Shown: positions 2,427 to 32,078 of the stretch, piece after piece
Position numbering within the stretch: position 1 is the stretch's first letter
How the letters are laid out: every line of letters starts with the position of its first letter
Assembly: GCA_947585795.1 (NCBI GenBank)
Contig: CANPXG010000021.1
Span: 1 to 38,843 of the forward strand
DNA: 38,843 bases
Reading direction: 5' to 3'
From: an uncultured Clostridia bacterium
Lineage (GTDB): Bacteria; Bacillota; Clostridia; UBA1381
The notes under the pieces: model-generated
Databases searched by the model: none
What the model was told of the DNA's origin: nothing
What the model saw: the letters and a program-made list of their open reading frames with translations, nothing else
Made by a program: the position numbers and the translations under genes

Positions 2427-2427
2427 G

Positions 2428-2552
2428 TACAGTAAATTATGTGGATTTACTGTTACAAAATTCAACATTAACAGTAAAAATGCAGTTTTTTCTGTTACTT
2501 TCGCAAGGCAGTAACGGACACTGTTATTTTTATGTGTTTTTACTGTTACTTT
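2428..2552. repeat. Seven-copy ACTGTTA iteron-like array (candidate parC)
   Basis: Seven copies of a TTTACTGTTAC-like motif lie in 125 bp. Forward copies: 2446-2456, 2491-2502, 2520-2530 and 2537-2552. Reverse copies: 2428-2436, 2468-2478 and 2509-2515. The two best forward copies share CTGTTACTTTC. The array fills the whole gap between parR and the DUF3847 gene, and I see no gene in it. It could be the ParR-binding centromere or a regulator array. Confidence 0.6.
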
Positions 2553-2582
2553 CAAAAAATTTAGCAGAAAGGATTGATAATT

Positions 2583-2783
2583 TTGACAGAAAACGAGAAA
2601 AAGTTGATACAGGCAAGGCACAGGCTTGAAGAAGCCGAAGCGCGGGACAGAGTTAAAGAGCGTAAAGCGAGAACTCGCAGGCTAATTCAAGAAGGTGCTG
2701 TCTTGGAAAAGGTTTTACCGAGTATCACAGTGATTGAGATTGACAATTTAGAGAATTACTTACGAAGTAATTTACGGCAGTAA
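2583..2783 (+). CDS. DUF3847 family protein (putative mobilisation accessory)
   Basis: 66 residues. I chose the TTG at 2583, starting LTENEKKL, because AAAGGA at 2568-2573 is 9 nt upstream. The in-frame TTG at 2574 directly abuts that ribosome site. The protein is a charged helix (EKKLIQARHRLEEAEARDR), then RKARTRRLIQEGAVLEKV, the pattern of the DUF3847 family found next to MobA/MobL relaxases in clostridial elements. The TRRLIxxGAxLE segment is the conserved core. It probably helps form the relaxosome at the adjacent oriT, inferred from context. Confidence 0.75.
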   Translation: MTENEKKLIQARHRLEEAEARDRVKERKARTRRLIQEGAVLEKVLPSITVIEIDNLENYLRSNLRQ

Positions 2784-3135
2784 TGTCAATGGGGCGTTCC
2801 GATCAATCGGAACGTCCTTATTTTTATCCCCGAAGGGCGCACTTACTCACCACTTGCCGTAGGCAAGCGGTGGTACTGCCGCCGTGAGACGGCAGTCGTG
2901 CGCTCCTGCGGAGAGCTCGTCAAATTCGCTAACGCTTATTTGCCGTACAGCCGAACACGCAATCGACTGCGATTGCAAAGCGTTGACTGCTTCAACGTAG
3001 GACGCGGCGCGTCCGTTCGGCTGTTAGCAAAAACCTGTCACCGACAGCTTTTTGCGTTATAGGCTTACGCCTATCTTCTTTTAGAAAAAGAAGCAAAACT
3101 TGTCTGCTTGACAGACGGAAAGGAGAAAAATCGTC
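2784..3135. other. Non-coding, hairpin-rich region upstream of the relaxase
   Basis: No credible gene. It contains oriT (2831-2872) and then a chain of inverted repeats: ACTGCCG/CGGCAGT (2874-2895), GCAATCG/CGATTGC, CGTTGA/TCAACG, GACGC/GCGTC, the long-range pair ACAGCCGAAC/GTTCGGCTGT enclosing those, and ATAGGC/GCCTAT just before the relaxase ribosome site. The outer arms GCGCAC (2838-2843) and GTGCGC (near 2898) also pair. Such density suits relaxosome binding, single-strand initiation or a structured leader. Confidence 0.6.
2831..2872 (-). other. oriT: Origin of transfer with RSF1010-type nic sequence
   Basis: On the minus strand the sequence contains TAAGTGCGCCCT (complement of 2834-2845), which equals the core nic region of the RSF1010/R1162 MobQ oriT as I know it. 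Directly 5' of it on the same strand is an inverted repeat, CTTGCC-TAC-GGCAAG, extended by ACCAC/GTGGT. This is the arrangement of RSF1010: inverted repeat, a few bases, then nic. A MobQ-class relaxase gene follows 260 bp away, which supports the call strongly. Confidence 0.85.
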
Positions 3136-15037: not shown

Positions 15038-15745
15038 TCACAAAAACGGATCATTATCGGGATTTTTCTCCGTTTTTGTGAACACAAACAACACATTATC
15101 CCCGTCGCACTCCGCGACAAACACATCCTTTATATTGCCGACCTTGTTTTTGTACAGCGCCTTTTCGAGCCATTGCCTGTCCTTCCCCGCGCGTTTAAGA
15201 TTTTCCTCCATCACATGCCCGTCCAAAATGACGGCGTACATAAGCTTATCCTGCGCCGCCGCGACGGACATATCCTCGGTGGTGACGGGACGCGCGCCGA
15301 CCTTGGGCAGTATCGAGATCTTACCGTTTTCCTCAAGGATCGCGGTGTCCACATCGCTGAGCTTGAAATACCCGCTTATTCGGCACTGGGAGAGAAAATC
15401 GTTAATGTCGATATTCGCCTTCTTAAAATTTTTTTGGTATATCCTGCCGTTTTTCATAAGCAGCAGCGCCTTACCGGTAAGGAACCGACGGCACTTCACG
15501 CTTTTGCCGCTGATACGCGCTATGAGCCACATCACTGCGGTGTACACGCCTATGGCGGTAAGCGGCAGATAAAATTCCGTTTCCTTGGACAGCGCCATTT
15601 CCGCCGCGATATTACCTATGGTGATACTGTTGATGTAGTCGAACATACCAAGCTCCGACATTTGCTTTTTACCCGTTATTTTTGTGGAGAAAAACAGCGC
15701 GGTTATCGCGCCGAGCGACGTAAGTATTATTTTTAAAAACTGCAT
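15038..15745 (-). CDS. DUF421 (YetF/YdfR-type) membrane protein
   Basis: 235 residues. Three N-terminal hydrophobic segments (about 4-20, 38-52, 60-80) then a soluble alpha/beta domain of about 140 residues. Family hallmarks are GKKQMSELGMFDYINSITIGNIA at the second segment and SLRC-like CRISGYFKLSDVDTAILEENGKISILPK in the soluble part. DUF421 proteins are linked in Bacillus to spore and envelope functions, but their activity is unknown. Single leftward gene convergent with ppdK. Confidence 0.88.
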   Translation of the reverse strand: MQFLKIILTSLGAITALFFSTKITGKKQMSELGMFDYINSITIGNIAAEMALSKETEFYLPLTAIGVYTAVMWLIARISGKSVKCRRFLTGKALLLMKNGRIYQKNFKKANIDINDFLSQCRISGYFKLSDVDTAILEENGKISILPKVGARPVTTEDMSVAAAQDKLMYAVILDGHVMEENLKRAGKDRQWLEKALYKNKVGNIKDVFVAECDGDNVLFVFTKTEKNPDNDPFL

Positions 15746-15797: not shown

Positions 15798-17450
15798 TTA
15801 CATCTCACCGCGTATTTGCGCTCTTTTAATTTTACCGCCGATGGTTTTCGGCAGCTCCGCCACGAACTCGATCACCCTCGGGTACTTATACGGCGCGGTA
15901 TTTTTCTTAACATACGACTGCAATTCCTTTTTCAGCTCCTCCGTACCCTCATACCCTTTCGCGAGCACTATATCCGCCCTGACCACCTGACCGCGTATCG
16001 GATCGGGCGCGCCCGTAACGGCGCACTCCACGACCGACGGATGCTCCGTGAGCACGCTCTCAACCTCAAACGGACCGATCCTGTAACCCGAACATTTAAT
16101 AACGTCGTCTGCTCTGCCGACAAACCAATAATAACCGTCCTTGTTCCTCACCGCGAGGTCGCCGGTATCGTAGTAGTCGCCGTGAAGCCGTTCATACGTC
16201 ATTTCGTGGTTTTTGTAATAGCCCTTTAAAAGTCCCGTCGGCGGATTCGTCCTGACGTTTTTTATCACGATTTTTCCCTCCTCACCGTCCTGTACGGGAT
16301 CACCGTTTTCATCAACAAGCTCTATATTGTAAAGCGGCGACGGCTTACCCGTCGAGCCGGGAATGGGATCTATCCATTTAAAATTGGCTATCATGACGGT
16401 GGTTTCCGTCTGACCAAACCCCTCGCACATTTTTTTACCCGTGTGCTCATACCACTTATTAAAAACCTCGGGATTTAACGGCTCACCCGCCACGCACCAT
16501 TTTTCCACGCTCGACAAATCAAACTCCTCCATGTTTTCCTGAAGCATGAACCTATACATCGTGGGAGGCGCGCAGAACGTGTTTATTTTGTAATGCTCGA
16601 TTTTCTCCAAAAGCTTACGCGGCACAAATTTATCCATATCGTACGCGAACACGACCGCGCCGCACAGCCACTGACCGTAGATCTTGCCCCAGCCGAATTT
16701 GGCCCAGCCGGAATCCGTAACGGACAAATGCAGCGTGTCCTCACGCGTTTCCTGCCAGTACTTCGCGGTAACGATATGCCCCAACGGGTGGGCAAAATTA
16801 TGCTCGACCATTTTCGGCATACCCGTTGTACCGGACGTGAAAAATACAGCCATAGTATCGTTATAGTGCGTCGCGTCCTTGCCTTGGGGACGCTCAAACA
16901 CGTCGGACTGATTTTCAATGCACTTACCGAAATTTAACCAACCCTCCCGATCGTCTATCGTAATAAGATGCTTCACCGACGGCGCTTCCTTCGCCGCACC
17001 GCTTGCCTGAGCAAGCACGTACTCATCATTTACGCATATAAACGCCTCAATATCCGCCGCCTCCGCGCGGTAAACGAGATCCTTCTTCGTAAGCTGCACG
17101 GAGCCGGGTATTAACACCGCGCCTATCTTATGCAGCGCCACCGCACACACCCAATACTCCCACCTGCGCCGCATGATCATCATAACCACGCTGCCCTTTT
17201 TAATACCTATACCTTTTAAAAAGTTCGCCGCCTTGTTCGACATTTTCATAATATCGTAAAACGTAAACACCTTCTCGTCCCCGCGGTCGTCGCACCATAT
17301 GAGCGCCTTTTTATTCCTGTCGGCTTTCGCCCACTCATCAACCACGTCAAACCCGAAATTAAAATTTTCGGGGACATTCACCTTGTAATTCTCCTTAAAA
17401 TCCTCATATGAATCAAATTCCGTTCTCGGCAAAAATCTGTTTAAAAGCAT
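15798..17450 (-). CDS. Acyl-CoA synthetase, MACS/AcsA-like AMP-binding enzyme
   Basis: 550 residues from the ATG at 17450 (MLLNRFLPRTEFDS), which has AGGAGGCG before it. Adenylation motifs: AVFFTSGTTGMPKMVEHN (A3 P-loop), GFGQTETTV (A5), YYDTGDLA (A7), GRADDVIKCSGYRIGPFEVE (A8) and the C-terminal catalytic lysine in TIGGKIKRAQIR. The overall layout, with VSDSGWAKFGWGKIYGQW-like tryptophans, is that of medium-chain or acetyl-type acyl-CoA synthetases, forming acyl-CoA + AMP + PPi. It diverges from the Dlt-like operon, so it could supply acyl groups for it or simply salvage short-chain or aromatic acids. The substrate is unknown. Confidence 0.93.
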   Translation of the reverse strand: MLLNRFLPRTEFDSYEDFKENYKVNVPENFNFGFDVVDEWAKADRNKKALIWCDDRGDEKVFTFYDIMKMSNKAANFLKGIGIKKGSVVMMIMRRRWEYWVCAVALHKIGAVLIPGSVQLTKKDLVYRAEAADIEAFICVNDEYVLAQASGAAKEAPSVKHLITIDDREGWLNFGKCIENQSDVFERPQGKDATHYNDTMAVFFTSGTTGMPKMVEHNFAHPLGHIVTAKYWQETREDTLHLSVTDSGWAKFGWGKIYGQWLCGAVVFAYDMDKFVPRKLLEKIEHYKINTFCAPPTMYRFMLQENMEEFDLSSVEKWCVAGEPLNPEVFNKWYEHTGKKMCEGFGQTETTVMIANFKWIDPIPGSTGKPSPLYNIELVDENGDPVQDGEEGKIVIKNVRTNPPTGLLKGYYKNHEMTYERLHGDYYDTGDLAVRNKDGYYWFVGRADDVIKCSGYRIGPFEVESVLTEHPSVVECAVTGAPDPIRGQVVRADIVLAKGYEGTEELKKELQSYVKKNTAPYKYPRVIEFVAELPKTIGGKIKRAQIRGEM

Positions 17451-17500
17451 ACCGCGCCTCCTAAAAATTATTTTAACCACATAATATAGTTAACAATACA

Positions 17501-17574: not shown

Positions 17575-17603
17575 TTGACACATACAGGCGTAAATGCTAT
17601 AAT
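17575..17603 (+). promoter_or_regulatory. Consensus sigma-A promoter of the Dlt-like operon
   Basis: TTGACA (17575-17580), exactly 17 bp, TATAAT (17598-17603) with TGC immediately before it (extended -10). All twelve consensus bases match, so strong housekeeping transcription of the eight-gene operon is expected unless repressed. Confidence 0.85.
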
Positions 17604-17646
17604 TGCAATGTATAGCTACGTAAAAATTTGCGGTATGGAGGAAATT

Positions 17647-19188
17647 ATGGTGCATTTAAATTCTGCGGTAAGGCTTTTGGACAGAGCCGCCCAAAAATAC
17701 GGCGACAAAACAGCCATAGCCGACGAGTGGGGAGAGATAAGCTTTAAGGAACTGCAAAAAAAGGGCAAGGCTGTCGGAACCGCGCTCATAAAAACATCGG
17801 CTGACGGATACATGCCGTCACCCGTTATGGTGTATCTTAAGAAAAGCATATCGTGTCTTGTTTGCTTTATGGGCGCGATGTACAGCGCCAACCCATACGT
17901 CCCCACCGCTTACGATATGCCGGTGAACAGAATAGGAAAAATCATAGACAGCTTGCAGGGCAGAGGACACATAATCACAGACGAAGCAGGTCTTAACAAC
18001 CTAAAATCGCTTGACATTCCGGAAACGATAAACATTCATATTTATAATGACGCGGTAAACGGCGAAACCGACGAAGCTCTTATCGAAAGCGCACTTCGCG
18101 GCGCGGTCGATACCGACCCGATATATATAATGTTCACCTCCGGCTCCACCGGCGCACCCAAGGGCGTAACGGTACCGCACAGAGGCGTAATAGATTACGC
18201 GATGTGGGTATGCGACACGTTTAACATAGACGAAAACTCCGTACTCGGCAACCAAGCGCCGTTTTACTTCGACAATTCCATATTTGACATATACAGCTGT
18301 CTTTTATCGGGCGCGAAAATGATCATAATACCCGAAAAACTGTTCATGTTCCCGTTAAAGCTTCCGGAATTTGTACGCGACAACTCTGTCACGACGATAT
18401 TTTGGGTACCGACGGTGATGATAAACGTGGCAAATTCGGGCATTTTAAGCGAAATCGACATGCCGAAACTGAAAAACGTGGTATTTTGCGGCGAAGTAAT
18501 GCCCAACACACAGCTCAACATTTGGCGCAAGGCGCAGCCGCACTGCACCTACGCCAACCTTTACGGACCTACCGAAATTTCCGACGTATGCACATATTAC
18601 ATCGTTGACCGCCCGTTCAAGGACAGCGATCCGCTGCCCATAGGCAAAGCGTGCCGCAACATGCGCGTCATAATACTCAACGACAAAAACGAAATAGCCA
18701 AAACAAACGAACAGGGCGAAATTTGCGTCATAGGCACGGGCGTGTCACTGGGCTACTGGAACAACGGCGAGATCACGGCGAAGGCGTTCGAGCAAAACCC
18801 CGTAAACCCGTACTACCACGAGCGCATTTACCGCACGGGCGACCTCGGGTACGTGAACGGGGAAGGTCTTATAATGTATATAGGACGCATGGACAATCAG
18901 GTAAAAGTAAAAGGCAACAGGATAGAGCTTGGAGAGATAGAAAACGCGGCGATGTGCGTCGCGGGCGTAAAGGGCGCGTGCGCCGTATTCGATGACAGGG
19001 AACAAAGGATAGTAATGTTCATCGAAAGCGACGAGGAATTTAAGCTCCGCAAATTCAATATGGAGCTGAAAAAATATATACCGAGCTACATGCTCCCCTC
19101 CGACCTTGTCGTTACGGACAAGTTCCCGCACACCGCGAACGACAAGATAGACAGGGTAACGCTTAAAAAAAGCATTTACGAAAATTGA
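17647..19188 (+). CDS. DltA-like adenylating ligase 1
   Basis: 513 residues from the ATG at 17647. GGAGG at 17637-17641 decides this start; the longer frame begins inside the promoter. It belongs to the adenylate-forming family close to DltA and NRPS adenylation domains: P-loop TSGSTGAPKG at 164-173, FYFDNSIFDIYS, FCGEVMPNTQLNIWRK, YGPTEISDV, YRTGDLGYV, GRMDNQVKVKGNRIELGEIE, and the C-terminal lysine K500 in NDKIDRV (usually SGKIDR or NGKIDR). It would activate an amino or other carboxylic acid as acyl-AMP and load the carrier protein encoded downstream. FWVPTVM replaces the residues usual around the DltA substrate pocket, so D-alanine should not be assumed. The stop overlaps the reading frame of ligase 2. 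Confidence 0.9.
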   Translation: MVHLNSAVRLLDRAAQKYGDKTAIADEWGEISFKELQKKGKAVGTALIKTSADGYMPSPVMVYLKKSISCLVCFMGAMYSANPYVPTAYDMPVNRIGKIIDSLQGRGHIITDEAGLNNLKSLDIPETINIHIYNDAVNGETDEALIESALRGAVDTDPIYIMFTSGSTGAPKGVTVPHRGVIDYAMWVCDTFNIDENSVLGNQAPFYFDNSIFDIYSCLLSGAKMIIIPEKLFMFPLKLPEFVRDNSVTTIFWVPTVMINVANSGILSEIDMPKLKNVVFCGEVMPNTQLNIWRKAQPHCTYANLYGPTEISDVCTYYIVDRPFKDSDPLPIGKACRNMRVIILNDKNEIAKTNEQGEICVIGTGVSLGYWNNGEITAKAFEQNPVNPYYHERIYRTGDLGYVNGEGLIMYIGRMDNQVKVKGNRIELGEIENAAMCVAGVKGACAVFDDREQRIVMFIESDEEFKLRKFNMELKKYIPSYMLPSDLVVTDKFPHTANDKIDRVTLKKSIYEN

Positions 19189-19202
19189 AAGGAATGAAAG
19201 CT

Positions 19203-20729
19203 ATGATGAACAGCGCCGTATGCCTGCTTGAACGGGCGGCGGAGAAATTTGGCGGACGCACCGCGTTCGAGGACGGGACTCTCTCCGTTTCGTTCGCGGA
19301 GCTAAGACGCTTATCAAGACAGCTGGCGGCGGGACTTGTTTCAAAAACGCGCACGGGAAATCTGTACCCCGTGATAGTCTACCTACCCAAAAGCGTCAAA
19401 TCGATAATCAGCTTCATGGGGATAATGTACGCCGCAAGCCCGTACGTACCGATAGATTACGCCATTCCTTTGTCACGACTGGAAAAAACGGTTGAAAACC
19501 TTGACCCGTCGGCAATTATAACCGACGCGGCGGGCGCGGAAAACCTGAAAAAAATCAACATCACGACCGACGTGCTTCTCTTTGACGACCTCGAAGCGCA
19601 CGGCGCGGACGGTAAAATGCTCGAGCATACGCTAAATTCCGTATGCGACCTCGATCCCGCGTATATAATGTACACATCGGGCTCGACCGGCACACCGAAG
19701 GGAGTTACCGTTTCACACCGAGGCGTTATCGACTACACGGAATGGGTCATTGACACCTTCCCCATAACCGGCGAAAGCATCATAGGCATGCAGTCGGCGT
19801 TCCACTTTGACAATTCCGTATTCGACATGTTCGCCGCCCTCTACATGGGCGCGAAAACGGTCATAATCCCCGAGGTACTGTTCATGTACCCCGAGAAACT
19901 GACCGAGTACCTTGCGGACGAAAAAATCTCTGTCATATTCTGGGTACCGACGGTCATGATAAGCGTCGCAAACAGCGGCGCACTTGAAAAAATTCCTCTG
20001 CCCGACCTAAAGCTGATACTTTTCGCGGGCGAGGTAATGCCGAACACACAGCTCAACATTTGGCGCAAATACCTGCCGCAATGCATGTACGTAAACATGT
20101 ACGGTCCCACCGAATCGACGGACATAGCGACGTATTACGTTGTTGACAGAGAGTACGGAAACCACGAAACATTGCCCATAGGTATTCCGTGCGCGAACAT
20201 GAAGGCGCTTATATTAAACGACAACGACGAGCTTTGCAAGGTGGGCGAGCAGGGCGAGCTGTGCATTTGCGGCAGCGGTATAGCGATGGGTTACTGGAAC
20301 GCGCCGGACATTTCCGACAAGGTTTTTGTGCAAAACCCCTTAAACAAGTATTACCATGAGCGCATATACCGCACGGGCGACCTCGTGTATAAGAACGGGG
20401 AGGGTAACATTATATTCATCGGACGCGCGGACAGTCAGATAAAGCTTCGCGGCAACAGAATAGAGCTTGGCGACATAGAAGCGGCTGCTGCGGCGGTGGA
20501 CGGAGTAAAAAGCGTATGCGCCTTGTTTGACGAGGCAAAGCAGGAAATAGTGCTGTTTACGGAAACGGAACAAGAGATAAACGCGCGCAAATTCAAAATG
20601 ACGCTTCAAAGCTATATACCGAAATACATGGTACCTTCTCGGATAATCACGATGGAAAAATTTCCGCATACGCCGAGTGGCAAGATAGACAGAGTAGGCT
20701 TAAGAAAGACATATATAGAAGGAGAATAA
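19203..20729 (+). CDS. DltA-like adenylating ligase 2
   Basis: 508 residues. The ATG at 19203 follows AAAGGA (19188-19193) by 9 nt. It is a tandem paralogue of ligase 1 with the same block order: P-loop TSGSTGTPKG from residue 158, FHFDNSVFDMFA, IFWVPTVMISVANSG, FAGEVMPNTQLNIWRK, MYGPTESTD, YRTGDLVY, GRADSQIKLRGNRIELGDIE, and K494 in SGKIDRVGL. The two share nearly identical active-site strings yet differ through the rest, so this is an old duplication rather than a recent copy. Either the two load different acids on one carrier or they work as a pair. The stop is 2 bp before the carrier gene. Confidence 0.9.
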   Translation: MMNSAVCLLERAAEKFGGRTAFEDGTLSVSFAELRRLSRQLAAGLVSKTRTGNLYPVIVYLPKSVKSIISFMGIMYAASPYVPIDYAIPLSRLEKTVENLDPSAIITDAAGAENLKKINITTDVLLFDDLEAHGADGKMLEHTLNSVCDLDPAYIMYTSGSTGTPKGVTVSHRGVIDYTEWVIDTFPITGESIIGMQSAFHFDNSVFDMFAALYMGAKTVIIPEVLFMYPEKLTEYLADEKISVIFWVPTVMISVANSGALEKIPLPDLKLILFAGEVMPNTQLNIWRKYLPQCMYVNMYGPTESTDIATYYVVDREYGNHETLPIGIPCANMKALILNDNDELCKVGEQGELCICGSGIAMGYWNAPDISDKVFVQNPLNKYYHERIYRTGDLVYKNGEGNIIFIGRADSQIKLRGNRIELGDIEAAAAAVDGVKSVCALFDEAKQEIVLFTETEQEINARKFKMTLQSYIPKYMVPSRIITMEKFPHTPSGKIDRVGLRKTYIEGE

Positions 20730-20731
20730 AA

Positions 20732-20977
20732 ATGGAAGAGATCAAGGACACATTAAGAGCGTTTATAAGCGAAAAATTTGAAATAGGCGACGATCCCGAC
20801 TTTACGGACGACGTTCACCTGTTTAACGAGGGCTTTGTCGATTCGTTCGGCGCGGTGGAAATTATCCACTTTATCGAGCAGACGTACAACATTCAGATCA
20901 CGCAGAAGGATATTACGCTTTATCCGATGAACACGGTTGAGGAAATAGCCGAGGTAGTTGACAGCAAGCTTTCATAA
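20732..20977 (+). CDS. Acyl/D-alanyl carrier protein (DltC-like)
   Basis: 81 residues, acidic and four-helix in pattern. The phosphopantetheine site is S38 in GFVDSFGAVEIIHFIE (DSF in place of the common DSL). It would carry the acid activated by the two ligases as a thioester and hand it to the MBOAT protein encoded next. Start ATG at 20732 with AGAAGGAG upstream. Size and motif match DltC-type carriers rather than the fatty-acid ACP, and no fatty acid synthesis genes are nearby. Confidence 0.92.
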   Translation: MEEIKDTLRAFISEKFEIGDDPDFTDDVHLFNEGFVDSFGAVEIIHFIEQTYNIQITQKDITLYPMNTVEEIAEVVDSKLS

Positions 20978-20991
20978 CGAGGAGTAATAAA

Positions 20992-22140
20992 ATGTGGTAT
21001 TTACAAGCCGACGTACTCTTACGGCTGCTTATTGCCTGCGCTTCGATAATGTTGATTTCGGGACTGACGCGCCTCGTCTTTAAAAAGGACTTGGCGCCGA
21101 AGGTTCTGATTTTCGCGGACATAGCCGTTATAGCTTACGTTTCGTGGCAGCTCGCGCTTTGGAGCGTGGGCTACGCGCTTATTACCTTTATACTGGCACG
21201 GATTTTAAGACCGCTGAAAAAAACGAGGCGGTTTTTCTTCGTGTTTTTCGCTGTTTTATGCACGGTACCGTTTTTCTACGGCAGAATGACGGAGTTTTTT
21301 CCGCAGCTGCCCGTTATAATAACGTTTGTCGGTATCGCGTACCACATGCTCAAAGCCGTGGACGTGATGTACTTCGTGTACTACGCCGACATGAAAATAC
21401 CGTTTTTGACGTACATGAATTATATGCTGTTTTTCCCGACATTCACCTCGGGACCTATTTTCCGTTACAGAGATTTCCAAAAGGTTTTCAATAAACCCGT
21501 ACCGCTTACGCCCGACAGATTTATTACGTGCGTGAAGCGCTTTATAAAGGGCATGTTCAAAAAAATGGTCGTGCTGTACTTCGTTTCGACATTTTTCAAT
21601 TTCCTTTTGGGAAGCGACAAACATTGGTACGTAAGCCTTTTGACAGTCGTGACGAGCTACTTTCTGCTGTACTTCGACCTGTCGGGCTACAGCGACATAG
21701 CCATCGCCACCGGCTCCGTCATGGGCTATACCGTGCCGGAAAACTTTCGCAAGCCGTGGGCGGCAGCGTCGTTTACGCAGTTTTGGCGCAACTGGCACAT
21801 AACTCTTTCGGACTGGGTAAGAGAGCATATTTTCGTTGTGCTGAACGGTAAAAAGCTGAACCGCCTCGCGTCGGCGGGCGTGGGCTTCGCGGTCATGTTC
21901 GTCATGGAAATGTGGCACGGCTTCACGCCTCCGTACCTTGTCGGCGGCGTGTACAACGGTCTTTGCCTCGGCATGGAAAATCTGCTGGGACTTACGACTG
22001 CGGACAAGCGCAAAATGAACAAGGCTGTATACGTTATACGCTGTGTTATCGTGAATATGCTCTTCGCGCTCAACACTCTGCTTATGACGGTAACGACAGA
22101 GCAGCTTGCGGAAATATTAAAGGGATTTTTGATACTCTGA
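20992..22140 (+). CDS. MBOAT-family O-acyltransferase (DltB-like)
   Basis: 382 residues with about ten hydrophobic segments. MBOAT landmarks: YFVYYADMK and LFFPTFTSGPIFRYRDF near 128-163; LYFDLSGYSDIAIATGSVMGY near 226-246; FRKPWAAASFTQFWRNWH (H269) followed by TLSDWVREHIF; and MEMWHGFTPPYL with the predicted catalytic H309. These are the signatures of DltB, which takes the acyl group from its carrier protein and passes it across the membrane to an extracytoplasmic polymer. At 382 residues it is of normal DltB size. RBS GAGGAG at 20979-20984. Confidence 0.93.
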   Translation: MWYLQADVLLRLLIACASIMLISGLTRLVFKKDLAPKVLIFADIAVIAYVSWQLALWSVGYALITFILARILRPLKKTRRFFFVFFAVLCTVPFFYGRMTEFFPQLPVIITFVGIAYHMLKAVDVMYFVYYADMKIPFLTYMNYMLFFPTFTSGPIFRYRDFQKVFNKPVPLTPDRFITCVKRFIKGMFKKMVVLYFVSTFFNFLLGSDKHWYVSLLTVVTSYFLLYFDLSGYSDIAIATGSVMGYTVPENFRKPWAAASFTQFWRNWHITLSDWVREHIFVVLNGKKLNRLASAGVGFAVMFVMEMWHGFTPPYLVGGVYNGLCLGMENLLGLTTADKRKMNKAVYVIRCVIVNMLFALNTLLMTVTTEQLAEILKGFLIL

Positions 22141-22159
22141 TTTACGGAAAGGAACGGCA

Positions 22160-23023
22160 ATGAAAAAGGTCATATCAATTATAGCGGTCGTGCTTGCCGC
22201 GCTCGTATGCGACTTGGCGCTGACGTATAACAATTTTATCGTGCGAAGCGACCGTTTCGTAAAAAACGACTTCGAGATCACGCAGTGCAAGCACCCCGAA
22301 AAAGTATGGGACAAGGTGTTTTTCGGCAACAGCGTCGTAATTTCCGCGTACGATGAGGACAACAGCACAAGCGGCTACGTAAACCTCGGTCTTGACTACG
22401 GAGTTGTGACCGACCTGTGGGAAATGATAAAAAAACACCATATAAATATCGGCTCCGATTTGGTAATAGGACTTAACTACCTGACGCTCTACGACGAGTT
22501 CGACACGAACCCGACGTATATATGGCATAAGGACATATATGTGCCGTACGCGTACTTTGAGCGCGACCGTTTTTATCCGATCATTACGGACGGCTTTGAC
22601 AAAATACTCAAAGGCGAAAGCCCATGGCCCATGAGCTATCTGCCGCAGGAGAAACACGTTTACCACGGCGCGATGTCCGAGCGCGCCCTTGCGGACAGCA
22701 TGGCAAAGTACGCTGAGCTGTACTTTAACCAACCCTTGGAAAAATTTCAAAAAAACATGGACGCGCTTGACAAGGTGATTTGTTACTGCAGCGAAAACAA
22801 CATACGCGTAAGAGTGGTGTGGATGCCGTGGAACACGGGTATCGAGCAGCCTCAGCTGCTTCGCGCCGTGCGCGCGGAGGCTGAAAACGTGCTGAAAAAG
22901 CATAACGTGGAAACGCTTGACTTGGAAACGCAGCTGCCGCCCGAATGCTTTTACGACACCGGACACCTTAACTACGACACCGGAACCCCGAAATTTATGG
23001 AAATAATAGATAATTGGTTATAA
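22160..23023 (+). CDS. Membrane-anchored SGNH-like protein (DltD-like role)
   Basis: 287 residues with one N-terminal anchor (about 4-22) and an extracellular domain. Block I, FFGNSVVISAY, places S58 after G56-N57 as nucleophile. Block V, YDTGHLNYDTGTPKFM, supplies D266 and H269. VIGLNYLTLYDEF may be the GxN block. This is the SGNH hydrolase or O-acyltransferase architecture also used by DltD, AlgX-like and OafA-tail proteins. It is much shorter than classical DltD (about 400 residues) and only weakly like it by eye. Its place after the MBOAT gene suggests it moves acyl groups onto, or off, the envelope polymer. Confidence 0.8.
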   Translation: MKKVISIIAVVLAALVCDLALTYNNFIVRSDRFVKNDFEITQCKHPEKVWDKVFFGNSVVISAYDEDNSTSGYVNLGLDYGVVTDLWEMIKKHHINIGSDLVIGLNYLTLYDEFDTNPTYIWHKDIYVPYAYFERDRFYPIITDGFDKILKGESPWPMSYLPQEKHVYHGAMSERALADSMAKYAELYFNQPLEKFQKNMDALDKVICYCSENNIRVRVVWMPWNTGIEQPQLLRAVRAEAENVLKKHNVETLDLETQLPPECFYDTGHLNYDTGTPKFMEIIDNWL

Positions 23024-23043
23024 AAGTATGCGGAGGTAGAAAA

Positions 23044-23151
23044 ATGAAACCACTCAAAAAAATTCTGACATTCGCGCTTTACGTTTTAATGTTCGCTCTT
23101 GTCTGCATATTCTTCACAGGCAACGGCACTTTCATATATGAAGCGTTTTAA
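23044..23151 (+). CDS. dltX: DltX-like single-TM microprotein ending in FxYxxF
   Basis: 35 residues, ATG at 23044 with GGAGG at 23032-23036 (7-nt spacing). Basic start MKPLKK, one transmembrane helix (about 7-25), then GNGTFIYEAF at the very C-terminus. F30-I-Y32-E-A-F35 fits the FxYxxF motif conserved at the end of DltX, whose tyrosine is reported to relay the acyl group from DltB to the polymer acyltransferase. In classical operons dltX is first (dltXABCD); here it follows the SGNH gene. The short length hides it from ordinary gene calling. Start, anchor, motif position and context all agree. Confidence 0.85.
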   Translation: MKPLKKILTFALYVLMFALVCIFFTGNGTFIYEAF

Positions 23152-23163
23152 AAGGAGATAACA

Positions 23164-26064
23164 ATGAAAAAACTTATACCCTTGCTTTTTCTCGCGCTCT
23201 GCCTCACGTCGTGCGCCGCAAAGCCGGAAATCGAAAACCCCGACACGCTCCGCGCCGCCGTACTCGGCGCATCCGACAGCGTAAGCGCCGTGAACGCGTA
23301 CAAATTCCTAAACGAATCCACCGCCGCGACGCTTACCGCCGACATGACGGACATGACGGACGCGTCCGCGCTGGCGGAGTACGACATTATTTATATTGAC
23401 AAAAGCGCACCGACCCTCCCGTCGTTCGACGCGAACGCAATAGAAACGTGCGTGTTTGACAGCGGCGCAAGCGTCGTACTCGACAACGAGCTTTACACTT
23501 ATTTCGACAACGACTTTATCGGTGCGGCGGAATTTGTTCCGGTAAACGGCTGCCCCGTCGACATGGAATACCCCGCCGCCGACCGTGACATACAGAAAAT
23601 ACAGGAACTCATCTCCGATTTTTGCTCACTGTACAGAAACTACGCAAACTTCGACATTCTCTCACAGCAAAACTACGGCGCGGCTGTCGTCCCATCCACC
23701 GCACAATGTATAGCCACAAAGGACGGCGCGGGAATTTACACGGTAAACCGATACGGAAACGGGTACGTATTCTTCACGAACCCGCTTTTGCCCAACATTT
23801 TTTCTGTCAACGACCTTTCCCCCGAAAACACGGGCGAGTACCTTGCCGCCGCCACCGTGGGCGCGAACAAGCTTTTCCGCGACTACATGGCGGAATACGT
23901 TTCCATGAAAAAATACGGCTACAGCATCGAGCTTGTACTCGGCGGCTACGCGTCACCCGCCGCGTCATGGGAATGTCACTACGAGGACATTACCGGCATA
24001 GAAAACGGCTCGGCGGAAATATTTGAGGAAATGTGCGAAAATTACGGACAAGTACCGTCGTTTACGCTGGTACGAAACCCCTACGTGTGGTTTCGCCGCG
24101 CCGAAAGCGTCACCTACGCGCTTAACCAAAACGGACAATTCTCGATGGATCCCTACGAAAACGCCTACTCGTCCGGCACGCATTTTGCGGCGGCGGGCAA
24201 ATGGCTCTCCATGGACTACGACGACAACACGATAAGCTATTTCGAGGAAAGCGCGGACTACACAAAGCGCGCCTACCCGTGCCCGACCGACTTAAACGGC
24301 GACGGAACGATGGACTTGATTTGCGGCAGCGCCGACGGCAGACTGTACTACTTTGAAGGCATCGGCATGAAAACGAACTACGAGCTCGGCGTTGAAACGA
24401 TGTTTACCGACGCAAACGGCGCACCGATCTCCGTGGGTGCTTACTCGTCGCCCGACCTAATGGACATAAACGTTGACGGAATAGACGAAATAATATGCGG
24501 CAGCGAGGACGGCACCGTACACTGCTTCGCCCGCGCGGACGGAATGGTACTTGAGGACTTGGGCGTCATCATAAACACGGGACTTACAGACGCGATGGTC
24601 GCTTCGGGCGACTTAAACAATGACGGCATAACCGACATAGCCGTAGGCTCACGCGGCGGCGAGCTCAGGATATACTACGGAACTCTCGGTCAATTCGGCT
24701 TTGAATACTCCGACTACGAGGCAGTTGAAGGCGGACAGCTTTTTTACGCGCCCTGCATCGCCGACTTAAACGGCGACGGTGCGGACGAGCTTTTTGCTGG
24801 TACGTTCGACGGCTACATCGCGGGCTATGACGAAAACCGCCTTTTCGCCGGCTACCTTGAGGGCAGCGAGCGCAATTACAAGGGCAACACCCACTTAAAA
24901 TTCGGCACAAACTGCGTCCCGAGATTTTACGACTTAAACGGCGACGGCGCGCTCGACCTTATCGCCGGCTCCTTGGAGTACGGAATGGCTGTACCGATAG
25001 ACAGCGAATACTTTCCGCAGCGCGAAAAGCTGCAAAAGCAGATAGACGGATTTAAGGAGCGCGATATTTACGTCGGCGTTCACTCACTTTCGCACGAGTA
25101 CGCGGACATGTCCCACGACGAGCGCGAGCTTGCGTATCAGAAGGCGGCGTTCGAGGAATACGGTCTTGGCTTTGAGGGCAGCGGCGCGAACCAGCACACA
25201 TGGCGCACGAGCAAAATAGGCTACGACGCAAATTACGACAACATGTGCGGCTACGACGGCACATACCGCGCGCAAATGAACGCGGGACTTTACTGGAACA
25301 GCGGCTCACAGCCTCCAAACAGCATCGCGGTACCCGAGGTCAGCGCGGAAAACTCGATACTCCTCCCGTTTTACCTGAGCAACGGTCAGCTCATGCTCCA
25401 GCCCTGCAACACCCCGAACGGAAACAGCGCCTACTCGTACATCAGCGCGAAGTACGAAACGCCGCTTCTATTCTATAACCACTGCGACTACGTGTACGCG
25501 GACATGGCGGGCGAGGAGGAAAAAATAAAGAAAGCGGACGAGATAGTAAACGACTGCGGCTACAGCTTCGTGGAGGAAGACCAGCTTGCGAAACTTGTCG
25601 CCGCGGCGTACAACACGCACGTAAGCGCGGTTTGGGAGAACGACGGTCTGTCGCTCACCGCGTCGGAGAAACGAACAGACATACCGCTTTACGACGAAAA
25701 TTACCAAAACGCTGTGGGCGTGAAGGTGACCCTTGCTGACGGAGTGGCGGCGGACGAGTTCAACGTTGACGCGGACGTTTATTATAAGAAAAACAACTGT
25801 ATATACACGTCGCTGTCGGGCGGCGCGCGCATATCGAAGATGGGCGGCAATAACGACATAAACATAACGTCGGTAAATCTCCCCGCGTCGATACGCCGCG
25901 ATAAGGACGGCGCGAGCGTGAAATTCCTTGACGGCGGAATGATGTGCGTCAGCGTAAAGGGCGCGGCAAAAACCTCGTCAAAGGGCTGGACAACGACGCA
26001 CCAAAACGACACCACCACCTTCCGCAAATACGGTCCCCCCTCCACGATCAAAATAGAACGATAA
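23164..26064 (+). CDS. Lipoprotein with CE4-like deacetylase split by a VCBS/FG-GAP beta-propeller
   Basis: 966 residues. Signal peptide with lipobox LTSC (C17), so it is lipid-anchored outside the membrane. Residues about 30-235 look like a Rossmann-type GATase-like domain (IIYIDKSAPTLPSF, YGNGYVFFTNPLLPNIF). After it comes ELVLGGYASPAASWECHYEDIT, whose D275 could be the first CE4 metal or base residue. Five calcium-type repeats (DLNGDG at 376, DINVDG 434, DLNNDG 483, DLNGDG 534, DLNGDG 590) form a propeller. Then H640-S-L-S-H644 fits the CE4 HSxxH metal motif, and H773 in LLFYNHCDY fits the late catalytic histidine. Residues 790-966 are beta-rich. Probably a surface polysaccharide-binding deacetylase-like enzyme. 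Last gene of the Dlt-like operon, 12 bp after dltX. Confidence 0.75.
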   Translation: MKKLIPLLFLALCLTSCAAKPEIENPDTLRAAVLGASDSVSAVNAYKFLNESTAATLTADMTDMTDASALAEYDIIYIDKSAPTLPSFDANAIETCVFDSGASVVLDNELYTYFDNDFIGAAEFVPVNGCPVDMEYPAADRDIQKIQELISDFCSLYRNYANFDILSQQNYGAAVVPSTAQCIATKDGAGIYTVNRYGNGYVFFTNPLLPNIFSVNDLSPENTGEYLAAATVGANKLFRDYMAEYVSMKKYGYSIELVLGGYASPAASWECHYEDITGIENGSAEIFEEMCENYGQVPSFTLVRNPYVWFRRAESVTYALNQNGQFSMDPYENAYSSGTHFAAAGKWLSMDYDDNTISYFEESADYTKRAYPCPTDLNGDGTMDLICGSADGRLYYFEGIGMKTNYELGVETMFTDANGAPISVGAYSSPDLMDINVDGIDEIICGSEDGTVHCFARADGMVLEDLGVIINTGLTDAMVASGDLNNDGITDIAVGSRGGELRIYYGTLGQFGFEYSDYEAVEGGQLFYAPCIADLNGDGADELFAGTFDGYIAGYDENRLFAGYLEGSERNYKGNTHLKFGTNCVPRFYDLNGDGALDLIAGSLEYGMAVPIDSEYFPQREKLQKQIDGFKERDIYVGVHSLSHEYADMSHDERELAYQKAAFEEYGLGFEGSGANQHTWRTSKIGYDANYDNMCGYDGTYRAQMNAGLYWNSGSQPPNSIAVPEVSAENSILLPFYLSNGQLMLQPCNTPNGNSAYSYISAKYETPLLFYNHCDYVYADMAGEEEKIKKADEIVNDCGYSFVEEDQLAKLVAAAYNTHVSAVWENDGLSLTASEKRTDIPLYDENYQNAVGVKVTLADGVAADEFNVDADVYYKKNNCIYTSLSGGARISKMGGNNDINITSVNLPASIRRDKDGASVKFLDGGMMCVSVKGAAKTSSKGWTTTHQNDTTTFRKYGPPSTIKIER

Positions 26065-26668
26065 CCCATCCCCTTCCCCCCCGCCGTTAGGCCCCCTTGC
26101 TGCAGCGTTTGTTCGCAAGCGAACACGCCTACAACACTTACGTGTTGTTCACCCCGACGTCCCTTCCCCCGTAGGGGCGACCTTCACAATCGCCTGCCTG
26201 CCTTCCCCTTTGCTACGGCGTTTGTTGCTTCGCCGTTAGCCTCCCCTAATAGGGGAGGTGTCGCCGTAGGCGACGGAGGGGTTTGTAGGGGCGGATATCA
26301 TCCGCCCGCCCACGGGGGTGTCCGGAGGGGGCGTAGCGCCCCTCCGGTCGTTTCAAGGGGGTGATTCCTAAGAGGGGGGAAATCGAAATCCCCCCTCTTA
26401 GGGTTTTTGGTTCTTTTTTTAAAAAGAACACCCTTTGCACATCTCCGATGTGCCAACAACAACAATTGTACAGACGAATATTCCCCCGTAGGGGCGAACC
26501 GCGTTCGCCCGCCGCAAGGCTCCCCTAATAGGTGAACGACGCTTTAGCGTCGTAGGCATAGAGCTATGCTCGTATGCCGTAGCAAAGGAGCTGTCGCCGT
26601 AGGCGACTGAGGGGTTTATACTCGCCCTTCCCCCCTTACCATATCCACATTCAACAGGAGAAACCGAC
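26065..26668. repeat. Non-coding zone of palindromic intergenic repeats
   Basis: No gene. It consists of G/C-rich mosaic repeats: CTCCCCTAATAGGGGAG hairpins, GTCGCCGTAGGCGAC hairpins (twice), GTAGGGGCGA units and one copy of the 141-bp element. Chance reading frames cross it on both strands but have no ribosome sites and simply translate palindromes. The radical-SAM ribosome site (AGGAGA) closes the zone. Confidence 0.7.
26331..26470 (-). repeat. 141-bp four-hairpin element, copy 1 (inverted)
   Basis: Contains in order (read on the minus strand) GCACATC/GATGTGC, GTTCTTTTT/AAAAAGAAC, CCTAAGAGGGGGG/CCCCCCTCTTAGG and AGGGGCGC/GCGCCCCT palindromes. The reverse complement matches 31218-31358 with only a handful of differences. 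Confidence 0.8.
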
Positions 26669-27583
26669 ATGAAAAACCACTATTCCACTTACTATAGATC
26701 CTGCACGCTTTGCCCGCGCCGCTGCGGAACCGACAGAACCAAAAAAACGGGCTATTGCGGTATGAGCGCCACACTTACCGCCGCAAAGGCGTATTTGCAC
26801 ATGTGGGAGGAACCGTGCATCTCCGGCGAAAACGGAAGCGGCACGGTGTTTTTTTCGGGCTGCAGCCTGCGTTGCGTGTACTGCCAAAACAGGGAAATAG
26901 CCTTGGGACGCGTCGGCGCGGAAATAACGGCGGAAAGACTTGCTGAAATCTTTCTCGAACAAAAGGGGCGCGGCGCGGAAAACATCAACCTCGTCACGCC
27001 CACCCACTACGCGCCGCATATTATCGCGGCGCTCGACATCGTGCGCGGAAAGCTCAACATACCCGTCGTTTACAATTGCGGCGGTTACGAGAGCGTCGAC
27101 ACGCTCAAAATGCTCGAGGGATATGTGGACGTTTATCTTCCCGACTTCAAATACGCGGACAGCGCCATAGCGAAAAAATACTCCGCCGCGCCGGACTATC
27201 CGGAAACGGCGAAGGCGGCGATAGCCGAAATGGTGCGCCAAACGGGCGCGTGCGCTTTTAACGAAAACGGCGTAATGACGCGCGGCACGCTCGTGCGCCA
27301 CCTCGTGCTCCCGTCGTATACGGAAAATTCCAAAGCGGCACTGGAGTACCTGTACAAAACATACGGAGATGATATTTACATGAGCATCATGAACCAGTAC
27401 ACCCCTCTCCCTCACGTCAAAAAGTACCCCGAGATAAACAGGCGCGTCACGGACGAGGAGTACGCGGACGTAATATCCTTCGCCGAGGTATTGGGCGTGG
27501 AAAACGCGTATATACAGGAGGGCGGCACCGTTTCGGAGAGCTTTATACCCGCTTTCGACGGCGAAGGAATAATAGAAAAATAA
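26669..27583 (+). CDS. Radical SAM protein, PflA-like (COG1313 type)
   Basis: 304 residues. The radical SAM cluster motif CSLRCVYC (C65, C69, C72) uses the canonical CxxxCxxC spacing. The N-terminal extension has four more cysteines (C12, C15, C19, C30: CTLCPRRC...GYC) that could bind a second metal site. GENGSGTVFFSGC and VYNCGGYES are hallmarks of the PflX/COG1313 group, annotated as pyruvate formate-lyase activating-like, whose true substrates are unknown. ATG at 26669 with AGGAGA upstream. No glycyl-radical enzyme gene is near, so its target is elsewhere. Confidence 0.9.
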   Translation: MKNHYSTYYRSCTLCPRRCGTDRTKKTGYCGMSATLTAAKAYLHMWEEPCISGENGSGTVFFSGCSLRCVYCQNREIALGRVGAEITAERLAEIFLEQKGRGAENINLVTPTHYAPHIIAALDIVRGKLNIPVVYNCGGYESVDTLKMLEGYVDVYLPDFKYADSAIAKKYSAAPDYPETAKAAIAEMVRQTGACAFNENGVMTRGTLVRHLVLPSYTENSKAALEYLYKTYGDDIYMSIMNQYTPLPHVKKYPEINRRVTDEEYADVISFAEVLGVENAYIQEGGTVSESFIPAFDGEGIIEK

Positions 27584-27588
27584 ACATA

Positions 27589-27617
27589 TGGACAAAACGC
27601 TCGAAAAATGTTATACT
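27589..27617 (+). promoter_or_regulatory. Promoter of the HIRAN gene
   Basis: TGGACA (27589-27594), 17 bp, TATACT (27612-27617) with TG upstream. It starts just after the radical-SAM stop and would give a short leader. Confidence 0.6.
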
Positions 27618-27652
27618 TTATGTGTCGAAATATTAGCTTGGTGGTGGAAAAT

Positions 27653-28012
27653 ATGGAAGAAATATATGTTACCGTGACGGGTTTTGCACATTATTATCAG
27701 AAAAAACCGTTTGCCATAGGCAATCTGCTCGCGTGCGTAAAAACACCGTCCAATAAATATGATTCCGAAGCGATAGAGGTACGTCTTCCCGTTATCGGCA
27801 AGGTGGGTTTTATCGCCAACTCACCCGCGAGCGTCGCGGGCGGCACCACGAGCGCGGGACGGGTATACGACAAGGTTGAGGACGTGTTCTATATCCGTGT
27901 GATGTTCACGACGCAGAGCAAAATAATCTGCCGCGTGGAGGCGGGCGACGCAGAAGCGTTTGAAAACGAGATAAAGGCGCAGATGCTTTCCGGCGGAGAA
28001 TGGCTTGAGTAA
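27653..28012 (+). CDS. HIRAN-domain protein
   Basis: 119 residues from the ATG at 27653 (MEEIYVTVTGFAHYY) preceded by GGTGGTGG. The longer frame begins within the promoter. The whole protein is one HIRAN-like domain: YVTVTGF at the first strand, KTPSNKYDSEAIEVRLP (the conserved N-x-YD-x-x-A-I/V), KVGFIAN. HIRAN domains recognise 3' DNA ends in eukaryotic HLTF. Stand-alone bacterial versions are common but uncharacterised. It is 15 bp or more ahead of the membrane-anchored gene and likely cotranscribed. Confidence 0.8.
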   Translation: MEEIYVTVTGFAHYYQKKPFAIGNLLACVKTPSNKYDSEAIEVRLPVIGKVGFIANSPASVAGGTTSAGRVYDKVEDVFYIRVMFTTQSKIICRVEAGDAEAFENEIKAQMLSGGEWLE

Positions 28013-28072
28013 CGTATTGAATTTGAGGTGACTGATTTGCAGCAGACCGAATTGGAGCGCAAGGAATCAAAA

Positions 28073-29245
28073 ATGAGCGATATGCTGTCAAAAATAAAGA
28101 ATATTAAGGTAAAACCCGCCGACGTTACGGTCACGGCGGTCGTTTTGCTGCTCGTATGTCTTGTGATAGTACCGTCCGTGGTAAAATGCGTCGCGAACCG
28201 CAATAAGTCCGCGTGCGAGAGCCACATGAACAAGATAGTAAAAACGCTCGGCACCGAGCTTACCAAGGAAACGGAAAGCGGCGGCTCGTATCTGCACGAG
28301 CTTATTATGAACGGCAACTATCAGAAGCTCATGAACAATATAAACGTAAAGACCGGCGACAGCGGCAAATTCCCCTCGTCCGATTACTATATACGCCCGG
28401 GCGACGAGAAGCTGTCGGTCGTGTGCAAGAAGCATAACGACATAGTCGCCAAGGAGCTAAGCTTTTCCGTTATGCGCAACGTAAGCGTGGACATCGCTCC
28501 GCGCCCGACGTTCGCGGAAAGGATAGTGTACCTGTCGGTAAGCGGACCTGACACGTACTACCAAAACGACTCGCTCGATCCCTCCGATCCGTCAAGGATG
28601 GTATTTGTCGGCGAGGACGCGGACAAAGCCATACAGAATTTAAAGGTAAAAGCCGTGTATATAGGCGGCGCGGAAGAGGAGCTTCCGAGGGTGAAGTACA
28701 CTGTCACGTCGGACGGGCTGGACATGACAAAGCCCGGGCAGGCGCTCATTATCGTCAAATCAAACCCCACCTCTCTGTGGGACAACAGCGCGTACGCGCC
28801 GTTCCTCATTGACGTTATAGGCGAAGAAGACATTGCTCCGCTTATCGCCGACGGCGGCATAAACGGCAAGTACGAGCTTGCCGCGTGGGACTGGCGCGAC
28901 TTCGTGGAGGAAGCGTCCATGGAGGACGGCGGAAAGACGTTCGGCGCGTCGATCGTGCGTTCGGGCGGCGCGTACTACTATTACCCGAACGGTATGCGCA
29001 TTGTAAACAGTAATGAAAACAGCAACCCGTTCGACTACGCGCTCGATACGGACGACGAGAAAAAGAGCGCATACTGTATCAAATTCGATCCCGACTCGGT
29101 GATCCTTACCGACGCGGACAACGATAAAATACATAACGGAAGCATGAAAGTGGAGAACGAGCTTGTGTACATATGGCAGGATAAGCCCGCAAAGGAGCTG
29201 CCCGCCGGCTGGATACGGGTGTACTGTGAACTTAAGAAATACTAA
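28073..29245 (+). CDS. Membrane-anchored extracytoplasmic protein, function unknown
   Basis: 390 residues from the ATG at 28073 (MSDMLSKIKNI) with AAGGA 7 nt upstream. A TTG at 28037 behind GAGGTGA is an alternative giving 12 more residues. One TM helix (about 21-40: VTVTAVVLLLVCLVIVP) resembles the anchor of pilin-like or type II secretion-like proteins but no prepilin site is seen. It is followed by a helical segment (CESHMNKIVKTLGTEL) and a long beta-rich outer domain with an Ig-like stretch near residue 160-240 (VKYTVTSDGLDMTKPGQALIIVKS, as in bacterial Ig-like group 3 domains). No catalytic motif is recognised. Confidence 0.8.
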   Translation: MSDMLSKIKNIKVKPADVTVTAVVLLLVCLVIVPSVVKCVANRNKSACESHMNKIVKTLGTELTKETESGGSYLHELIMNGNYQKLMNNINVKTGDSGKFPSSDYYIRPGDEKLSVVCKKHNDIVAKELSFSVMRNVSVDIAPRPTFAERIVYLSVSGPDTYYQNDSLDPSDPSRMVFVGEDADKAIQNLKVKAVYIGGAEEELPRVKYTVTSDGLDMTKPGQALIIVKSNPTSLWDNSAYAPFLIDVIGEEDIAPLIADGGINGKYELAAWDWRDFVEEASMEDGGKTFGASIVRSGGAYYYYPNGMRIVNSNENSNPFDYALDTDDEKKSAYCIKFDPDSVILTDADNDKIHNGSMKVENELVYIWQDKPAKELPAGWIRVYCELKKY

Positions 29246-32049: not shown

Positions 32050-32078
32050 GAAGAAGATATAAAAGGGAGGATTTGAGA

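Follow-up and report, generated by a model that had tools for sequence, protein, structure and literature searches.

Organisation of the operon

The window analysed here is the whole 38,843-nucleotide contig CANPXG010000021.1 of an uncultured Clostridia bacterium (assembly GCA_947585795.1). It carries an operon of seven close-packed plus-strand genes with likeness to the Dlt system. These encode two ligases, LIG1 (17647..19188) and its paralogue LIG2 (19185..20729, starting at TTG 19185 or ATG 19203), a carrier protein (20732..20977), a DltB-like MBOAT (20992..22140), an SGNH-type protein with an N-terminal hydrophobic stretch and presumably a DltD-like role (22160..23023), a DltX-like microprotein of 35 amino acids with one transmembrane segment (23044..23151), here called the shuttle, and a lipoprotein of 966 amino acids (23164..26064). 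Gene content, strand and order are as given in the original prediction, and the DltX-like gene is confirmed, starting at ATG 23044 and ending in the hexapeptide FIYEAF. The gaps range from -4 to about 20 bases (20 ahead of the shuttle ATG); of the predicted spacing of about 2 to 20 bp the upper value holds and the lower does not, an overlap of 4 bases being seen. Pfam matches were obtained for both ligases (AMP-binding), the carrier (PP-binding), the MBOAT and the last protein (FG-GAP repeats), while the SGNH-type protein and the small protein had no Pfam match at E ≤ 0.001.

Ahead of the first gene is a sigma-70-type promoter that matches TTGACA-17-TATAAT perfectly (17575..17603, plus strand). 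Three such perfect sites occur in the window vs none in 100 shuffles. Among 16 of the 21 operon copies (those with a supplied start for the first gene, 200 bases being searched), the promoter has no mismatch in 13 and one in three, with a spacer of 16 in L046 and a site at the edge of the searched bases in L049. The consensus promoter that had been predicted is thus present, but the gene start placed at 17575 is not, as that TTG is the -35 box itself and the likely start of LIG1 is ATG 17647 behind GGAGG. Downstream, a terminator-like hairpin followed by a T run (26366..26403, plus strand; 15 pairs, 9 GC) probably marks the end of the operon unit. Its stem is twice as long as the next-longest terminator-like stem of the region, where neither terminator-like sites (10 vs 14.4) nor promoter-like sites (6 vs 8.9) exceed the totals for shuffles.

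Distribution of the operon

Of 95 genomes of the order, 21 have an orthologue of the MBOAT (at least 66% identity; next hits at most 38%), and these are referred to below as core genomes. The core gene order is kept, up to the contig ends, in the 20 operon copies fetched besides that of the window, and this conservation excludes a chance origin of the operon. Both ligases are present, whole or in part, in 18 of the 20, and in the remaining two copies a contig end intervenes. Scanning of named genomes returned 34 loci, comprising 19 close copies, 14 distant operons (L077-L090, 42 to 53% identity) and one unrelated MBOAT (L091). The carriers include Lachnospiraceae bacterium MD329 (L060), whose record bears no MAG label. 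Among the distant operons, seven have one ligase, three have two and one has three; the other three are cut. MBOAT, SGNH and shuttle genes accompany the ligases wherever contigs permit, the shuttle gene sometimes lying elsewhere in the genome. The neighbourhood search proposed with the original prediction shows a conserved operon, with the lipoprotein as its regular companion. The searches made of open-access PubMed Central (PMC) papers, which miss most subscription journals, listed no description of such an operon.

Two distant carriers, L086 (labelled Candidatus Gastranaerophilales) and L090, have LpxC and are diderms. Contamination is unlikely for L086 because its LpxC gene shares a 163,602-base contig with the operon and an outer-membrane efflux gene is close by. 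A Mu-type transposase gene lies just downstream of the L086 operon, consistent with horizontal transfer.

Separation from canonical Dlt

NCBIfam scores of the ligases, carrier and MBOAT reach 44 to 64% of the curated Dlt cut-offs. For DltA, the ligases score 286.6 and 274.4 bits vs 559.85, and 302.7 and 288.7 vs 476; the carrier scores 25.8 vs 52.35 and 31.5 vs 68 for DltC, and the MBOAT 167 vs 375 for DltB. In the MBOAT tree the proteins of 32 operons group in a single clade (100/100), separate from three DltB, nine other microprotein-type and four fused-tail MBOATs. The ligase tree places 54 ligases in one clade (100/99), apart from three DltA and 14 nonribosomal peptide synthetase (NRPS) domains. 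Both trees contain long branches flagged by the program, and their canonical reference consists of three operons only. The sub-cut-off scores and the separate ligase and MBOAT clades rule out a canonical dlt operon; nesting within DltA or DltB, the phylogenetic outcome that would have spoken for one, was not seen.

The operon shares with Dlt (DltA-DltB-DltC-DltD-DltX) the ligase, the carrier, the DltB-like MBOAT with its His, the SGNH-type protein with Ser-Asp-His and the separate FxYxxF microprotein. It differs, beyond its own clades and low scores, in an altered amino-acid pocket, in a ligase number that varies from one to three and is two for the window's family, in a shuttle gene that stands at the core end or is split off, in a regular PelA-like lipoprotein companion and in its occurrence also in the two LpxC-bearing genomes.

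The predicted acyl relay

The phosphopantetheine site of the carrier, FVDSF, has its serine in 21 of 21 aligned proteins. The best NCBIfam model of this protein, an ornithine-lipid carrier, was rejected at 44 bits vs a cut-off of 130. Among solved structures, the MBOAT sequence matches DltB only (E = 9e-23). All 20 aligned MBOATs have His269 and His309, whose counterparts in DltB, judged by motif, are His289 and His336 as numbered in an excerpt of PMC11035591. The SGNH-type protein gave a weak NCBIfam GDSL match (E = 0.0074), and its Ser58, Asp266 and His269 are invariant in 23 of 23 aligned.

The shuttle tail of the window, FIYEAF, belongs to a pattern FIYE[AG]F seen in 12 of 12 tails of one set. 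In the distant operons FIYE is found in 12 of 12 tails and the full FxYxxF in six. Over every tail examined, 34 of 34 have FIYE; a search for this motif was the source of nine of them. Hits of the pattern search were counted only when confirmed by alignment; unrelated ones (such as L189 and sites in G000, G015 and G048) were discarded, and a reversed control pattern hit several genomes. Two of the three canonical reference loci have the tails FIYNDF and FIYNGF, and none was seen in L133.

In Dlt, the DltX tail FXYXXF takes D-alanine from DltB and hands it to the serine of DltD (PMC12148441, in excerpt). As the tail FIYEAF fits this published relay, the chemistry of the operon is most likely the same as that of Dlt. 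The residues that Dlt leads one to expect (MBOAT His, shuttle Tyr and SGNH Ser) are invariant in the alignments made, and the parts of a trans-membrane O-acylation relay are present, as had been predicted. Pathways of the PatA-PatB type also move an acyl group from MBOAT to a tyrosine hexapeptide to an SGNH serine, according to the same excerpt (PMC12148441). They differ in using acetyl-CoA and in having the hexapeptide on the MBOAT, whereas the operon relies on ligases, a carrier and a shuttle encoded by its own gene.

At nine loci of the phylum (L135-L139, L142-L145), too, a MBOAT the size of DltB stands ahead of a DltX-like microprotein (FIYTDF, FIYTNF, FIYNQF or FIYGGF); the window's proteins detected no carrier or tandem ligase nearby. 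In L144 an AMP-ligase-like gene lies on the opposite strand, and a GDSL-like gene precedes in L136 and L142, the two checked by Pfam. Other MBOAT-SGNH pathways are said, in the excerpted part of PMC12148441, to be without such a microprotein. The window's own genome has a second MBOAT of 462 amino acids (contig C72, L034:4034-6615) with a fused terminal hexapeptide, FLYFRF, and a 438-amino-acid frame behind it; this looks like an ordinary fused-tail acylation pair.

Ligases and amino-acid pocket

Both ligases carry the adenylation motifs searched for, and the catalytic lysine is present in 54 of 54 ligases of the system. Pocket positions, mapped by motif, give the codes DNFFVCLDVK for LIG1 and DNFFLAMDIK for LIG2. 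In DltA, the methyl group of D-alanine contacts Leu198, Met200 and Cys268/269, and amine contacts include Asp197 and Val301 (PMC8972799, PMC11253843, both in excerpt). At these positions LIG1 has Asp, Asn, Phe, Cys and Asp, each in 18 of 18, so that Cys is kept, Asn stands for Leu and Asp for Val. Of 19 LIG2 proteins, 18 have Asp330 and 18 have Ala instead of Cys; Asp331 occurs in all four second ligases of distant operons. Overall, Asn236 is found in 50 of 54 ligases and Asp at 330 or 331 likewise in 50; this Asp is absent from DltA, which has Val and Ala there (3/3). It is missing from one LIG2, the third ligase of L089 and the two ligases from LpxC-bearing genomes. Position 331 is, we assume, equivalent to D754 of EntF. 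That Asp forms part of the L-serine pocket of EntF (PMC11253843, in excerpt). Judged by these pocket residues, the loaded amino acid may be small and polar or cationic rather than D-alanine.

LIG1 (100/99) and LIG2 (100/98) each form a clade, and the duplication thus predates the window's family. The single and first ligases of distant operons are nearer to LIG1, though not firmly so (85/97). A further clade (97/87), without firm placement relative to LIG2, unites the second ligases of L082, L083, L087 and L089. In the three-ligase operon (L089:3941-14045) the third ligase, with pocket DAFFTVLVAK, is encoded between carrier and MBOAT. AlmE, the glycine ligase of Vibrio cholerae, is not known to work with an MBOAT-SGNH-shuttle relay. 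AlmE is likewise a DltA-like ligase that serves to aminoacylate the envelope, and its amino acid is not D-alanine (PMC11253843, in excerpt); it differs in acting on lipopolysaccharide.

Linkage of the lipoprotein to the core

The lipoprotein is part of the system and goes together with the shuttle protein. It was found in 20 of the 21 core genomes vs seven of the 74 others of the order (Fisher P = 1e-13, uncorrected for kinship). Its sequence distances track those of the MBOAT (r = 0.95, 20 loci), and the same is true for SGNH, LIG1 and carrier, indicating co-inheritance. In 11 of 21 copies, the window included, its gene stands directly after the core. In nine core genomes shuttle and lipoprotein were not seen after the core, where the contig ends in three, and in all nine the two genes are together on another contig. 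Eight of these have no SGNH gene in the DNA ahead of the shuttle, so the system is truly split there; in G043 the contig starts at the shuttle and could still be the missing operon end. Of the 14 distant operons, 12 have the lipoprotein gene directly beside them, in most cases upstream; in the other two (L079 and L088) the contig breaks off on the side expected to hold it.

Seven genomes have the lipoprotein without the core MBOAT. G016 and G019 retain only an SGNH-lipoprotein pair that has lost several conserved residues, the SGNH Ser, Asp and His being kept; in the lipoprotein, His272 is lost in G019 and the frame is broken in G016. Copies are shortened in G020 and G021 and in pieces at contig ends in G018. 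In G031 the ligases and carrier lie on a different contig, which is cut, and in G044 the lipoprotein is accompanied by the shuttle. SGNH and lipoprotein standing alone, with residues lost and one lipoprotein frame broken (L196:7085-10907 and L198:6209-10002), may represent either a stage on the way to loss of the operon or a reduced form of it. In the phylum, the lipoprotein was detected at E ≤ 1e-30 in four of 398 genomes, namely its own and three with remote relatives (26% identity); no core gene was found in the fetched flanks of these three, two of which are short contigs.

Fold and conserved residues of the lipoprotein

The AlphaFold model of the lipoprotein (pLDDT 89) has the Pel deacetylase PelA as its best structural match, and its overall domain arrangement and fold are those of the PelA/Agd3 type (CE18, CE21, CE26). 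Agd3 itself is not among the 50 fold matches listed. An FG-GAP beta-propeller of about 300 residues is inserted at about 315-610, between the MT1-like and MT2-like motifs. E274, H640, H678, H773 and D775 are kept in 19 of 19 members, H773 being the candidate for the MT5 His; motif residues were assigned by motif, not by superposition. Between them, the 19 members match 26 Pfam families at E ≤ 1, and none of the 25 listed is a deacetylase model; a plain CE4 deacetylase was rejected on this ground. Of the predicted CE4/propeller lipoprotein, the propeller is therefore retained and the CE4 assignment gives way to a model resembling PelA. When profiles of its two halves were searched against the sequences in PDB, a weak GH42-type match (E = 0.008) and weak oxidase matches (best E = 0.028) resulted.

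Compared with PelA (CE21), Agd3 (CE18) and Bacillus cereus PelADA (CE26), the lipoprotein is without a PelA-type hydrolase domain and has the propeller, an unconserved Asp-His-His triad and a tie to an aminoacylation operon. DltE of Lactiplantibacillus plantarum has a beta-lactamase/penicillin-binding-protein-like fold, whereas a PelA-like fold with propeller is predicted here. The likeness is that DltE, too, is an extracytoplasmic protein encoded with a Dlt-type operon (PMC10241514, in excerpt).

Interpretation

With a probability of about 0.6, the operon encodes a Dlt-type trans-membrane O-aminoacylation pathway of its own clade, apart from the D-alanylation of lipoteichoic acid (LTA), whose lipoprotein binds, prepares or edits the acceptor. 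LIG1, with LIG2, would adenylate an alpha-amino acid, perhaps other than D-alanine, and load it onto the carrier protein. The MBOAT would transfer the aminoacyl group across the membrane to the Tyr of the FIYEAF tail, which would hand it to Ser58 of the SGNH-type protein for esterification of an extracytoplasmic polymer, possibly a glycopolymer instead of or besides LTA. The lipoprotein, at the same surface, may bind, prepare or trim this polymer. Of the original prediction of a distinct polymer-modification system, the distinctness is upheld by the separate clades and sub-cut-off scores, and the preparing or editing of the acceptor stays conjectural.

Several observations weigh against this interpretation. 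The Cys that selects D-alanine in DltA is kept in LIG1 (18/18), which calls for caution about the substrate. The ligase pocket of the two LpxC-bearing carriers is EMLFMSIFIK, without the extra Asp, and their substrate may differ from that of the window system. Six of the 12 distant shuttle tails end off-motif (FIYEL, FIYEAV, FIYEGV, FIYEMVI). One core genome (G008, 79% complete) is without the lipoprotein and has kept the shuttle. The PelA match has a root-mean-square deviation of 6.5, and the PelA-type metal triad is incomplete, with Glu274 for Asp in 19 of 19, the first His of HxxxH in 19 and the second in six. There is no polysaccharide synthase gene in the operon. A PF00884 sulfatase is present in 18 of the 21 core genomes, so LTA may be available in the Clostridia; its frames are about 650 to 730 codons, mostly of LtaS length (348 in G040), and are candidates for LtaS only. 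Finally, no DltA over the cut-off was found elsewhere in the window's own genome (86.5% complete), so that the separate canonical dlt operon looked for there did not appear and this operon could simply be the lineage's Dlt.

A more specific form of the favoured interpretation is put forward tentatively. The operon could represent a second class of envelope aminoacylation that depends on a carrier and works with a DltX-type tyrosine shuttle, the amino acid being different from D-alanine. In it, an amino-sugar polysaccharide of the PelA/Agd3 type would be aminoacyl-esterified, and de-N-acetylated or edited by the lipoprotein. Such a class would be common to Clostridia and LpxC-bearing Melainabacteria and not essentially tied to teichoic acids.

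It is somewhat unlikely that the lipoprotein is instead an editing aminoacyl-esterase, which would remove groups added by the relay, making the modification tunable, and leave sugar N-acetyl groups alone. Esterase activity towards a pseudo-substrate is documented for enzymes of the PelA type (PMC12022489, PMC13254593, both in excerpt), DltE is a precedent, the lipoprotein gene is coupled to that of the shuttle, and the altered metal triad permits another substrate. However, the five residues kept in all members are only candidates for a common site, and the propeller suggests binding of polymer or protein.

Unlikely, too, is the possibility that the operon is a divergent Dlt of this lineage, performing the usual D-alanylation of LTA; one ligase would then be spare, and the lipoprotein an accessory that assists or, like DltE, removes D-alanine. 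The same relay parts in the same roles, the Cys of LIG1, the sulfatases of the core genomes and DltE as a dlt-encoded D-alanine esterase (PMC10241514, in excerpt) agree with it, as does the lack of any DltA over the cut-off in the 95 genomes of the order, searched with the DltA model (the DltB model was not applied to the order). Against it, Asn replaces the Leu of the D-alanine methyl pocket in 50 of 54 ligases and the extra Asp at 330/331 is found in as many (mapped by motif from the excerpts of PMC11253843 and PMC8972799). The two LpxC-bearing carriers gave no full-length LtaS-type sulfatase match, only partial ones (101 of 301 positions), and the Clostridial carrier genome G497, whose completeness is not known, gave none. 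The sulfatase is also present in 50 of the 74 genomes without the core and, being found with and without it, is not decisive as a marker of LTA.

That the lipoprotein is a catalytically dead, PelA-like scaffold presenting polymer to the MBOAT-shuttle-SGNH complex is quite doubtful. The propeller insertion, the exchange of the expected catalytic Asp for Glu and the frequent loss of the second HxxxH His would suit a scaffold, but the polar residues of the barrel (E274, H640, H678, H773, D775) are kept in 19 of 19 members, beyond the apparent need for binding. An NRPS-like secondary-metabolite fragment, suggested by a general amino-acid adenylation domain as the best NCBIfam match of both ligases, is highly improbable and was ruled out by the ligase tree, which sets them apart from 14 NRPS domains of the same order, and by the MBOAT, SGNH and shuttle genes that go with them wherever contigs show, beside them or, in the case of the shuttle, elsewhere in the genome.

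Charge, resistance to cationic peptides and signalling to the host are governed by the aminoacyl esters that surface polymers carry, and Dlt is the characterised relay with a carrier and a separate tyrosine shuttle. If the favoured pathway is real, a separate class in gut Clostridia with a changed pocket and a dedicated lipoprotein acting on polymer would mean that this relay has been reused for other amino acids or polymers. The pocket residues, the FIYE tail, the split shuttle-lipoprotein pairs and the LpxC-bearing carriers provide a set for testing it.

Neighbouring genes

The closest relative of the operon, L038 (MBOAT 93% identical), shares neighbour genes on either side. Upstream, a divergent acyl-CoA-type AMP-ligase gene (15798-17480, minus strand) and a DUF421/YetF gene (15038-15745, minus strand) are shared with L038 and not with other fetched copies. 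After the operon come radical-SAM, HIRAN and 405-amino-acid genes (26669-29245), which occur together in L038 and, by a lipoprotein fragment, in L203. The contig's left end (1123-4836) has genes for an actin-like protein and a MobA/MobL relaxase in DNA of lower GC content (0.42-0.45), which suggests a mobile element. Proteins with S-layer homology domains bind peptidoglycan-linked polymer, and one such protein of 979 amino acids is encoded at 32073-35012.

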